From a virus, in the IMG/VR virus record IMGVR_UViG_3300036861_000122, positions 1 to 33,392 of that record: a stretch of DNA of 33,392 bases; one strand, written 5' to 3'. Of the stretch, positions 3,896 through 19,710 are shown in pieces. The position numbers were made by a program, and so were the translations under genes. Position 1 is the first letter of the stretch. Every line of letters starts with the position of its first letter. Below the pieces are notes generated by a model, which saw only the letters and a list, made by a program, of their open reading frames with translations, was not told where the DNA came from and ran no database searches.

Positions 3896-5058
3896 TGGCT
3901 CCCGTCGTCGTAGGGCGACCAGAGGATCGGCTGGTACGTGTCGCTGTTCGGGTCGAGCTCCACGCCCATCACGCGGACGGTTTCGAGCAGTCCGTCGGGG
4001 TGGCGCGGCGATGGCGCCGGGTTGCCTTGGGCGTCGTGGTCGTAGACGACGAATGCGACGTCGTCTCCGAGTTGCAGGTCGCGGAGGTAGCGGGGGCCGA
4101 GGTTCGCGTCGACGGTCATGACGTGGGTGGTGTGGCCGCGGGCGTTGAGCTTGAGCGTGGACCGGCCGAGCCCGTCGAGTCCGGTGGCGGTCTTCACGCC
4201 GGGCTTGGAGATCTCTTGTTCCCAGCGCGGGTAGCCGCCTGCGATCCCCGCCTCGTCACGGGCCACAGCACCGACGGCCGAGCCGCTGTCAGCGCGGGGC
4301 GTGATCTGGTTCGCGCCTTTGCCTTCGGTGTAGTCGTCGGTGGTGCGGTAGGTGGTGACGCAGCCGGGGAAGTCGAAGCGGGCGTTCGGCTGGGTCGATG
4401 CCGATCCGAGGCGTGGCCGGCCGAGGAAGGTGAACCCGACGGCGAGGTGTGCGTCGGTTTTCCAGGCGGGCTTGATGATCCACTCTGGGCCGTCTTCGAG
4501 GTCGGCGAGGTCGCTGAGTGCGGCGAGGGCCTTGGTGTATTCCTTCGCCTTGTACCGCAGTGTCCGCGTCGTTGAGCCCTGTACGTCGACCGTGAGGTTG
4601 ATGCCTTCGACTGCCGCGTCGGCGAGCAGGTCGGCCATGATCTTGGCGTCTGTGTCGGTCCCGACGGCCTCGCTGTACGTGTGGGTCAGTACGGAGCGGC
4701 GGGAGAAGAACGCCTCCGGTGTCGCACAGGAGAGGTTCGAGTCGGGTTCGGACCCGCCGTCGCGGAGCAGGATGATCCCGGCCCACACGATGTCGCTAGA
4801 GACGCCATCCTCGTACTGCGCTTCGCAGGCGATGAAGGACCGGCCGGGCGTGGTGAACGTCCAGAAGTCCGACAGACTGAGCGAGTCGGAGACAGCGGAG
4901 TCCGCCAGGTCAGCCCGGAACGATGCCGTCGACAACTGCCCGATGTGGTTCGGGAGCGCCCCGGACGGCGTCAACGGCAGCGCCTGGAGCTTGATACCGG
5001 TCTTCAGGTCGCAGGCCCAGTAGATGTACGTCGCAGGGACCGGCTCCGGCGCGGTCAC
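3892..5058 (-). CDS. Minor tail protein, ReqiPepy6 Gp37-like
   Basis: The 388-residue product opens with ATYIYWACDLKTGIKLQALP and continues with a mixed alpha/beta body. It has features seen in actinophage and Gram-positive phage Gp37-like tail proteins: an early strand of the type ASFRADL, an interior TYRTTDDYTEG segment, and a C-terminal region on parameter-dependent strands (VAFVVYDHD). Such proteins sit at the tail tip as hub-like components. The GTG start at 5058 overlaps the preceding stop as GTGA; the longer frame from 5178 would lie inside the preceding gene and is Arg-rich. Position after the distal tail and fibre-like genes supports a tail-tip role. The family name is a recollection of pattern and not a search result. 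Confidence 0.8.
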   Translation of the reverse strand: MTAPEPVPATYIYWACDLKTGIKLQALPLTPSGALPNHIGQLSTASFRADLADSAVSDSLSLSDFWTFTTPGRSFIACEAQYEDGVSSDIVWAGIILLRDGGSEPDSNLSCATPEAFFSRRSVLTHTYSEAVGTDTDAKIMADLLADAAVEGINLTVDVQGSTTRTLRYKAKEYTKALAALSDLADLEDGPEWIIKPAWKTDAHLAVGFTFLGRPRLGSASTQPNARFDFPGCVTTYRTTDDYTEGKGANQITPRADSGSAVGAVARDEAGIAGGYPRWEQEISKPGVKTATGLDGLGRSTLKLNARGHTTHVMTVDANLGPRYLRDLQLGDDVAFVVYDHDAQGNPAPSPRHPDGLLETVRVMGVELDPNSDTYQPILWSPYDDGSQ

Positions 5059-17353: not shown

Positions 17354-17740
17354 TCAGGTCTGGGTGTAGGAGAGGTTCAGGACGTACGTGCCCTGGGTGG
17401 CGAACGCTTGCGAGGTGACCGCGCCGCCGTCGAGGTAGGTGCCAGCTGTGACGGCGGTGTGCACACCGGCACCGGCGACCGTGTCGCCGGCCTCGACGTC
17501 GAACGTGACCTGCGCGTAGCAGACGCCCGGCGTGGCAGGTTGCGACCCGGAACCGAGCGGGCCGACCGCGCCCGCCGCGCCCCAAGTGATCGCCTTGCGG
17601 GCGTAAGCGGGGCTGCCGCCGGCCAGTTCAGTGCCGGGCGATGACCCGGACGGAACGGTCGAGTACAACGCGGCGTAGTCGGCAGCGCCCGCGTAGGCAT
17701 CGGCGACCGTGTTCTTCATCGTGTCGGTCTTGATCGTCAC
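17354..17740 (-). CDS. Phage structural protein, unassigned
   Basis: The 128-residue product begins MTIKTDTMKNTVADAYAGAA and has a Gly/Ala-rich middle (GGSPAYARKAITWGAAGAVG) and C-terminal strands (GVCYAQVTFDVEAGDTVAGA, YVLNLSYTQT). The pattern IKTDTMKNxVADAY recurs in small structural proteins of actinophages, often close to capsid or fibre genes. The GTG start at 17740 has GAGGAGG seven bases upstream, one of the best ribosome sites of the window, suggesting strong expression. It is the first gene after the inverted-repeat intergenic element. Exact function unknown. Confidence 0.8.
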   Translation of the reverse strand: MTIKTDTMKNTVADAYAGAADYAALYSTVPSGSSPGTELAGGSPAYARKAITWGAAGAVGPLGSGSQPATPGVCYAQVTFDVEAGDTVAGAGVHTAVTAGTYLDGGAVTSQAFATQGTYVLNLSYTQT

Positions 17741-17770
17741 GGCGACCCCTCCTCAGGGCTCGGCGGGGCA

Positions 17771-17927
17771 TGGGTGTCGGGGCGCAGGTCGCGCCATGGC
17801 AGAGAGAAAGGAGGGCGCTCGATGCAGCGCAGCCGTTAGCCTGGCCAGGGACTCCCCGGTGCGCCTTCCCGCGGGCAATGAACGTGGTGATCAGCATCGA
17901 TTCCGCGGGTTGACGCCCCGACACCCA
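17771..17927 (-). repeat. Intergenic element closed by a perfect 14-bp inverted repeat
   Basis: On the coding strand TGGGTGTCGGGGCG (17927-17914) is fully complementary to CGCCCCGACACCCA (17784-17771), with 129 bases between. The element starts right after the stop of the gene ending at 17929 and ends about 15 bases before the GAGGAGG ribosome site of the next gene, so it fills almost the whole 188-base gap. Inside are further pairings: CCCGCGG near 17910 with CCGCGGG near 17870, and GGCGC with GCGCC. It could be a structured leader or processing RNA or a small non-coding insertion. No coding frame inside it is convincing. Confidence 0.55.
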
Positions 17928-17928
17928 G

Positions 17929-18156
17929 TCAGCGGCCGGTGACCGTCTTGCGAGCGGTCTTCTTCGCGGCGGCCTTCTTCGCCGGGGCAGGCACCTCGGC
18001 CGGGGCATCGGCCACCTGCTCCGGTTCGGGCTCTGCGGGCAGTTCCGCGCCAGCCGGCTCCGACGGCTCCAGCAGAGAACGGATCTGCTGGAGCTCGTCG
18101 AGGATCGCGACCTGGATCGACTCGCCGATCGTGACCGGCTTGAAGTCGTGACCCAT
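17929..18156 (-). CDS. Small protein with Lys/Ala-rich tail, downstream of capsid gene
   Basis: The 75-residue product starts MGHDFKPVTIGESIQVAILD and has a helix (VAILDELQQIRSLLEPSEPA), an acidic Pro/Glu linker and a basic C-terminus (APAKKAAAKKTARKTVTGR). Small proteins of this form often directly follow the major capsid gene in actinophages. The basic tail is histone-like and could contact DNA or the capsid interior, but that is inference. The gene begins six bases after the capsid gene and is followed at once by the inverted-repeat element. Confidence 0.8.
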   Translation of the reverse strand: MGHDFKPVTIGESIQVAILDELQQIRSLLEPSEPAGAELPAEPEPEQVADAPAEVPAPAKKAAAKKTARKTVTGR

Positions 18157-18161
18157 CAGGG

Positions 18162-19331
18162 TCAGGCGCCGGAGCCGTTGGAGACGGCCGTGGCGATCAT
18201 GTCGGTGCCGGCGCCGCCGACGACGTGGCGAGCCCTGTAGCTGATGTCGTCCGCCTCGAAGGAACCCTCCTCCGGCGCGATGGGGCCGCCACCGACACGG
18301 TTGCCCGCGTCAGCCTTGACGCGCAGGTCGGGGGTCTCGTGTCCGCGCAGGAACGCCAGGAACAGCGCCGGGCGCGCTGACGTGGTGGCCGGCAGCAGGT
18401 ACCAGGTGGTGTTGGCGTTCGCGCCCTTGTCGATCACCGGCAGCCAGTGGTCCACGACGAGCTGGACCCGGCCGGAGACCGAGTTCTTCATGATCGTGGT
18501 CGTGCTGCCGTTCGTGACCCGGATCTCGATCGCGTCGAGGATCTTCCGGGCCGTGGTCTCCAGAGCTGGCGGCACCACGAGCTTGAACGCCTCCACCGCG
18601 ATCGGGAGGCCCTCGGGATCGACGCGCTGCGAGATCGCGTCCAGGGCCGCGGTCAGCGCGGGGTCGGTGAGCGCCGGGTTGCCGGAGATCAGGTTCGACG
18701 AGCCGCCCGAGAACGTGTTGGTCTTCGGGTCGTAGGAGCGGCCCCATGCCGTCGCGTTGAAGTACGCGTCGTTCGGGCCGTTGCCGTCGGTCAGGAGCTT
18801 GACCGCGGCGGTCGTCTCGGTGTTGCGGGCCGCGACCGCGAGGCTGCCCGGGAGATCCTCGAGCTCGCCGAGCTCGTCGTTGATGATCGACTCCCAGGTG
18901 ATCTGGAAGACGCCACCGTACTTGGCGACGCTGATCAGGTACGGCGCCTTGGAGACCGACCGGTGGGGGTACTCGGTGCGCTCCGGCACCAGGTCCAGCG
19001 CCGCGCGGCCGCCCATCAGGTCGACCAGCGTCTTCGGCTTGAAGTCGCGGACGGTGGTGCGCTTCGCGTACTGGTCCCACACGGGCGGCAAGTCCTGGTA
19101 GCGGGCCATCATCTCCCGGTCGAGAACCTCGAACGCAGCACCCCGGAAGTCGTCGGAGGTCAGTGCCTCCTGGAGGTCCAGGGCGGCGCGCTTGCTGCCC
19201 TTGAACGCCTTGCCCATGAGCTGGGCGGCGGCGAGCACCTGCGCTTCGTTGATGCGGCGCGGCCGGGCGAACAGGTTGTCGTCGGCCGTAGCCTCCGCAA
19301 CGCTCGCACCAGAGAAGGTCTGGATGGTCAT
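18162..19331 (-). CDS. Major capsid protein
   Basis: The 389-residue product starts MTIQTFSGASVAEATADDNL after a GAGAGGA ribosome site. An N-terminal helical region (RRINEAQVLAAAQLMGKAFK, then REMMARYQDLPPVWDQYAKR) precedes the shell domain with YPHRSVSKAPYLISVAKYGG, VFQITWESIINDELGELEDL, and a C-terminal region with LPATTSARPALFLAFLRGHE. The strand-helix organisation and position after protease and decoration genes are those of an HK97-fold capsid subunit, with resemblance to the Mu gpT-like major head family that accompanies MuF-type minor head proteins. The 32 residues upstream in the longer frame are low-complexity and overlap the decoration gene, so they were rejected. Confidence 0.92.
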   Translation of the reverse strand: MTIQTFSGASVAEATADDNLFARPRRINEAQVLAAAQLMGKAFKGSKRAALDLQEALTSDDFRGAAFEVLDREMMARYQDLPPVWDQYAKRTTVRDFKPKTLVDLMGGRAALDLVPERTEYPHRSVSKAPYLISVAKYGGVFQITWESIINDELGELEDLPGSLAVAARNTETTAAVKLLTDGNGPNDAYFNATAWGRSYDPKTNTFSGGSSNLISGNPALTDPALTAALDAISQRVDPEGLPIAVEAFKLVVPPALETTARKILDAIEIRVTNGSTTTIMKNSVSGRVQLVVDHWLPVIDKGANANTTWYLLPATTSARPALFLAFLRGHETPDLRVKADAGNRVGGGPIAPEEGSFEADDISYRARHVVGGAGTDMIATAVSNGSGA

Positions 19332-19350: not shown

Positions 19351-19710
19351 TCAGTAGCCGAGCTTGACGCGGATGGTGGCGGTCGCCCCGGAAGTGACGG
19401 CCGCGAGCGCGTAGCCGAACCGGACACCGTTCGTGTTGTCCTTGTTCAGCTTCACGGTGTTCGCGGCGTCGTAGTACAGGACGTCGCCAGCCGCGACGGC
19501 GATGTTTGCGTTAGCCGCGTCCTTGCCTTCGACCGCGAGCAGCCACACGCCTTCGGTGTCTACCGACGTGGTGCCGTCGGCGCGCTCGTTGGTGACCGCG
19601 ACTGCCGGGATCTGCCCGATCAGGACCGGGTCACCGGACACCGGGGTCGCAGGCTGCGAGCAGACGGCCGAGAACTTCGTGCCGCGCTCGAAGACCATGT
19701 TCTTCGCCAT
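19351..19710 (-). CDS. Capsid decoration protein, DUF2190-like
   Basis: The 119-residue product starts MAKNMVFERGTKFSAVCSQP and is a compact beta-rich protein (GDPVLIGQIPAVAVTNERAD, then GVWLLAVEGKDAANANIAVA, YYDAANTVKLNKD, GATATIRVKLGY). This is the DUF2190-type pattern found in phage head decoration or stabilisation proteins encoded beside the major capsid gene. A near-perfect AAGGAGG lies eight bases before the ATG, inside the end of the scaffold gene, which suits a protein needed in hundreds of copies. Confidence 0.88.
   Translation of the reverse strand: MAKNMVFERGTKFSAVCSQPATPVSGDPVLIGQIPAVAVTNERADGTTSVDTEGVWLLAVEGKDAANANIAVAAGDVLYYDAANTVKLNKDNTNGVRFGYALAAVTSGATATIRVKLGY

Follow-up and report, generated by a model that had tools for sequence, protein, structure and literature searches.

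The viral DNA stretch analysed here (IMG/VR record IMGVR_UViG_3300036861_000122, positions 1 to 33,392; "the window", 33,392 nucleotides (nt)) contains an RNA element of 159 nt on the minus strand of its virion operon, at 17771-17929, where it occurs once. The element has a covarying fold and a fixed RNA strand, and it is spread over many phages, mostly directly behind the capsid genes. We interpret it as the gene for a free-standing, trans-acting structured non-coding phage RNA of about 110-165 nt, present mostly in actinobacterial-type phages, and assign this interpretation a probability of about 0.57. Its synthesis, its release and its action in trans are inferred.

The original prediction had pointed to a 188-base gap in the virion operon, bracketed by a perfect 14-base-pair (bp) inverted repeat that would be unlikely by chance, and had left the strand unstated. 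The gap (17741-17928) is real and belongs to a minus-strand operon, in which it is flanked by the upstream and downstream open reading frames (ORFs) of Table 1. When the gap was shuffled 400 times (Markov-1), a perfect inverted repeat of at least 14 bp, like the one found here (TGGGTGTCGGGGCG / CGCCCCGACACCCA, 17927-17771), never arose; about 350 other 188-nt stretches of the same GC-rich window contained one in a single case. In folding energy, the gap stands out only slightly (minus strand z = -2.05, plus strand z = -1.0). As this value is weak on its own, the main evidence for the element is comparative.

Helices P1 to P6 were obtained with RNAalifold from an alignment of the soil-type copies. 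P1, which consists of the 14-bp repeat and an inner U.G pair, closes a three-way junction with two arms (P2 and P3/P4) that carry complementary loops. Two internal pairings had been proposed before: CCCGCGG with CCGCGGG is helix P2, while GGCGC with GCGCC falls only roughly on P3, in which AGGCG really pairs with CG-A-CCU, leaving a bulged A. The loop-loop pairing TCGATGC/GCATCGA is an additional one that had not been noticed. Free variation among the soil-type copies is confined to part of the P2 loop.

Pairing in P1, P2, P4 and the loop-loop helix amounts to 94-100% in 16 representative members (15 for the loop-loop helix). When partners were exchanged among members, it dropped to 51-72%, and in 5000 exchanges a value as high as the real one did not occur for a single helix; since the helices for this count were picked by eye, the exchanges measure agreement given that choice rather than unbiased discovery, and the unbiased part of the family evidence comes from the covariance-model searches. 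Positions that changed on both sides number 13 in P1, 7 in P2, 6 in P4 and 7 in the loop-loop helix. In the soil-type loop-loop helix, for instance, C-G and U-A pairs are swapped on both sides. Non-compensating changes in the repeat arms had been named as grounds for giving up the structured RNA, but the changes in P1 are compensated, and covariation strongly supports the closed RNA that had been proposed. Complementarity of the loops within members was observed in 13 of 13 cases, compared to a mean of 4.5 and a maximum of 10 in 2000 within-member shuffles. Complementary stretches of at least five bases are also common between the loops of different members because several members share GC-rich loop sequences, which makes the within-member shuffle the more useful control. 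The U.G pair of P1 is kept in 15 of the 16 members and a G.U pair at the start of P4 in 13; as such pairs exist solely in the sense-strand RNA, they fix the strand.

About 24 distinct relatives were recovered by covariance models, most of them directly behind the capsid-gene cluster of soil, gut and isolate phages. Model R1, built from seven sequences, found a previously unseen relative (34.6 bits, E = 1.8e-5 over 82 kb) right behind the capsid gene of MT835568.1, a phage scaffold from the human gut; its loop-loop helix is GCCAGC/GCTGGC. A capsid alignment led to 80 loci, and R1 was run on 72 of these. There were 11 more matches, with E-values, rough as they are for covariance models, from 1.7e-12 to 0.016; two of them (L034 and L036) are apparently the same sequence. 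All 11 immediately follow the capsid-gene cluster, on the sense strand. Many of them are shortened to 117-139 nt and lack P5 and P6, but retain the three-way junction, P4 and a loop-loop helix with new sequences (CCCGGC/GCCGGG, CCCCC/GGGGG, CGCCC/GGGCG or GGCGACA/TGTCGCC). Close relatives of the window's capsid gene and exact-pattern scans yielded eight soil-type phage copies besides the one in the window; one of the eight is cut by a contig end. All soil-type copies follow the same kind of small Lys-rich gene, and the next gene differs. With capsid genes that are 74-92% identical, the identity of the element is 86-100%. Among the carriers in general, the downstream genes are unrelated, the distance from the element to the next gene ranges from about 10 to 170 nt, and in locus L039 the next gene is on the opposite strand. 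Due to the starting point of our sampling, capsid relatives, the capsid slot is over-represented; hosts are identified for a minority of the carriers.

Copies outside this slot were detected with a second model, R2, which was run over whole genomes of cultured phages and gave matches in two that infect Arthrobacter, Anansi (32.9 bits) and TripleJ (34.4 bits). In Anansi, a promoter-like sequence (TTGACA-N18-TAAACT) is followed by tRNA-Gly, tRNA-Val, the RNA at the 3' end of tRNA-Val, and an intrinsic terminator (GCCCCCTCGGGGGC-TTTTATTTTT); the tRNA-RNA unit of these Amigovirus phages contains no annotated gene. The RNA is present in 13 GenBank records of Amigovirus phages, including Amigo and Anansi, at 98-100% identity, and in Molivia at 74%, in the same tRNA-RNA arrangement as in Anansi. 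Pairing is maintained between Anansi and Molivia both in P4 (GGGAG/CTCCT and GGAGG/CCTCT, respectively) and in P1 (GGGTTGCGT/GCGCGACCC and GGTTCGCGT/GCGCGAACC), and the loop-loop helix GGTGG/CCACC is the same in both. In TripleJ and Kukla, a copy with P1, P2 and P4 is located at the right genome end, which is non-coding. A unit of promoter, tRNAs, RNA and terminator that holds no protein gene is what a stand-alone RNA gene would look like, and its presence in cultured phages speaks for the small-RNA-like nature that the original prediction had considered. Cluster AQ Arthrobacter phages, which carry the tRNA-linked RNA, also have genes for an RNA ligase and for a polynucleotide kinase, a combination known from tRNA-repair systems (PMC5513430). 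Shortly after the TripleJ RNA there is a sequence resembling the 3' half of a tRNA (GGCGGTTCGATTCCGCCCCAGCCCACT, L113:2500-2540(+)), possibly an attachment site or a degenerate tRNA.

The RNA is optional. Locus L032, which has it, and its sister L030, which does not, are 86% identical over the preceding 2 kb, and the break coincides with the ends of P1; the earlier notion of a small non-coding insertion is supported by this sister phage, which cleanly lacks the element. Across the RNA, L007 and L009 have a stretch of 165 bases in common without a difference, although their capsid genes are 74% identical. The identical block in L009 (548-730(-)) includes a leftover stop codon (CCAGTAG) of the donor's upstream gene, and we read it as the trace of a recent recombination at the element. 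Whole-record searches gave one confident copy per carrier (a second match in G015, E = 0.06, was taken as chance), and the model search did not find the RNA in the whole records of non-carriers. In L068, a tRNA-Met gene (4697-4771(+)) fills the slot behind the capsid gene, and the RNA is absent there.

Changing neighbours, optional presence and block exchange fit a stand-alone RNA gene, as does the location of all capsid-slot copies on the transcribed strand. Because the RNA is found in many phages, behind the capsid gene or in a unit of its own beside tRNAs, it probably stands alone and works in the infected cell. In the window phage, it would be co-transcribed with the late virion operon, in step with the capsid protein, and trimmed at the base of P1; in Amigovirus, it is the last member of the tRNA unit and would be freed by tRNA 3'-end processing and the terminator. 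The RNA adopts the three-way junction of P1, P2 and P3/P4, with both arms locked through the loop-loop pairing. Candidate contact sites for a host or phage protein or a ribosomal component are the CUUU-type strand and, as the likely main surface, the GCCAU bulge, the bulged A/U and the conserved junction (GGGGCGUCAA ... GAAGG ... ACCUGCGCCCC). A more specific proposal, which we hold more tentatively, is that of a new phage RNA family, free-standing and a companion to phage tRNAs, whose action in trans would concern host translation, tRNA metabolism or defence and which would have moved repeatedly behind the capsid gene for late, abundant synthesis.

Several points weigh against a free-standing RNA. 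Neither promoter nor terminator is evident around the capsid-slot copies, so that release is assumed there. About 20 of the known copies share one slot in the late messenger RNA (mRNA), which a cis-acting element would explain equally. The Amigovirus and TripleJ matches reach only 29-34 bits (E about 1e-4 to 1e-5), and the TripleJ and Kukla copies have no evident loop-loop helix.

The strongest competitor, though an unlikely one, is an element acting in cis in the late polycistronic mRNA, whose fold would part the capsid mRNA from the connector/tail mRNA as a nuclease stop or processing mark, or would tune translation of the next gene. All copies sampled from capsid relatives immediately follow the capsid-gene cluster. 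Whether or not they carry the RNA, many phages of the clade have a strong hairpin, without an evident T-run, downstream of the capsid stop codon, which makes mRNA processing at this place plausible. Furthermore, three-way-junction pseudoknots such as the compact flaviviral exoribonuclease-resistant RNAs can block bacterial RNase J1 in vitro (PMC5760640); they are analogues in mechanism, but differ in topology (here P1 closes the whole RNA) and have no sequence relation. However, the copies beside tRNAs or at a genome end, the variable distance to the next gene, its opposite orientation in L039, and the close relatives that manage without the RNA do not agree with a cis role. For the capsid-slot copies, such a role may still apply.

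We regard it as improbable that the element is a selfish or mobile RNA cassette that confers no advantage on the phage and is spread through recombination or by a homing endonuclease. Clean presence or absence with junctions at the P1 ends and the shared block in L007 and L009 would be expected of such a cassette, and L039 has a convergent gene for an HNH_3 homing-type endonuclease (4393-4947(-)) that ends 1 nt from the RNA. Still, an adjacent HNH gene was found in just one of about 20 carriers, and neither the elaborate fold maintained by compensatory changes nor the single confident copy per genome suits a purely selfish element. The same single case, from an HNH-like motif scan, is all that resembles an IscB/HEARO or IS110 bridge RNA partner; recombinases were not searched specifically. 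The L039 RNA also has a small hairpin inserted in P3.

A virion or packaging RNA analogous to the phi29 packaging RNA (pRNA), with loops pairing between molecules to form a ring on the portal or capsid, is marginally less probable still. The likeness is considerable: both are phage RNAs of similar size (117-163 nt here) with paired ends, a three-way junction and complementary, covarying loops on two arms; the usual location is beside capsid genes; and pRNAs keep the same plan despite little shared sequence (PMC5340915, PMC12670572). However, phage type, packaging genes and genome place differ. Genes of the window code for a large terminase of the ordinary kind (phrog_2), a portal (phrog_10963) and a tape measure protein, rather than for phi29-type gp16 ATPase and gp10 connector, for which no direct search was made. 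The loop pairs comprise 5-8 bp here as opposed to 3-4 in pRNA (PMC12670572), the Amigovirus copy sits in a tRNA unit, and with a sister phage that lacks the RNA a packaging requirement is unlikely. The pRNA model RF00044 matched none of 13 records at E <= 10, which carries little weight because no control genome was matched either.

A riboswitch or protein-binding leader, in which a ligand in the junction would control the next gene, is very improbable: a ribosome-binding site often follows P1, and purine riboswitches share the plan of three-way junction, kissing hairpin loops and conserved junction bases, but this likeness is one of architecture only, the downstream genes are inconsistent, no expression platform was seen, and the Amigovirus copies lead into a terminator in a unit without a leader-controlled gene. 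The suggestion of a riboswitch or of a regulator at the capsid/fibre boundary is therefore not favoured.

Among other known RNAs, those named C and D from the T4 tRNA cluster are stable non-tRNA RNAs of unknown function that are co-transcribed with phage tRNAs. They may be analogues of the Amigovirus copies, but belong to another host group, and most copies here are in the virion operon. GOLLD and ROOL are also structured, phage-linked RNAs of unknown role, but are far larger, and their Rfam models were unmatched. ARAGORN and the Rfam models for tRNA and transfer-messenger RNA recognised neighbouring tRNAs only and not the element.

Some further candidates were rejected. The CCTCCTTTCT stretch presumably equals the 3' end of 16S rRNA in bacteria, but outside the soil group it is kept only in part, and it is missing in L032 (TCCAATC) and L051 (TGACTTC), so that anti-Shine-Dalgarno mimicry is not the core function. 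Protein coding or stop-codon readthrough does not agree with lengths that differ modulo 3 and with the lack of a single frame open across all members. Several members have lost the ATG of a short antisense ORF that lies on the plus strand behind AGAAAGGAGG, and pairing accounts for the base change. A DNA site or transposon ends would not explain P1 sequences that vary among members yet remain complementary. L012 proved to be a chance pattern match, and the covariance model did not confirm the BLAST matches in AmM-1, Pavo, Wheezy and Margaret. A contig assigned to a Euryarchaeota genome bin, L006, carries a related capsid gene (36% identity).

Table 1. Features of the RNA element and its surroundings (positions in the window unless loci are given)
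Feature	Position	Strand	Remark
Whole RNA element	17771..17929	-	159 nt; model R1 match, 173 bits
P1 5' arm TGGGTGTCGGGGCGT	17913..17927	-	begins 1 nt past upstream ORF stop codon
Conserved CAA junction, P1 to P2	17910..17912	-	
P2 5' arm CCCGCGG	17903..17909	-	
Loop-loop helix 5' strand TCGATGC, P2 loop	17894..17900	-	
Hypervariable rest of P2 loop	17875..17893	-	
P2 3' arm CCGCGGG	17868..17874	-	
P3 5' strand AGGCG	17862..17866	-	
P4 5' strand GGGGAG	17852..17857	-	
P5 hairpin GGCC-AGGCTAAC-GGCT	17831..17846	-	long variants only
P6 hairpin GCGC-TGCATCGA-GCGC	17815..17830	-	long variants only; loop forms loop-loop helix
Loop-loop helix 3' strand GCATCGA, P6 loop	17819..17825	-	
CCTCCTTTCT stretch	17805..17814	-	conserved in soil group, partly elsewhere
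P4 3' strand CTCTCT	17801..17806	-	
P3 3' strand CG(A)CCT	17786..17791	-	bulged A
P1 3' arm GCGCCCCGACACCCA	17771..17785	-	
Major capsid protein	18162..19331	-	389 amino acids from likelier start; ORF opens at 19427
Upstream ORF	17929..18156	-	75 amino acids; Lys-rich C-terminus; without family match
Downstream ORF	17354..17740	-	128 amino acids; fibre/head-type; Pfam Gp80, phrog_240
Hairpin after capsid stop	L030, L033, L037, L044, L052, L055, L057, L062, L063, L066		

Few phage RNAs with a defined fold and a recurrent place are known, and this family is absent from Rfam: nothing in Rfam 15 matched the element of the window, the remaining members or the copies in Amigovirus and TripleJ. Optional non-coding RNA genes can occupy the slot behind the capsid gene, either the element or, in a relative, a tRNA. 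The RNA occurs in the named, cultured Arthrobacter phages Amigo, Anansi, Molivia, TripleJ and Kukla, and as these carriers grow on laboratory Arthrobacter, its expression and structure and the effect of its deletion are directly accessible to experiment.
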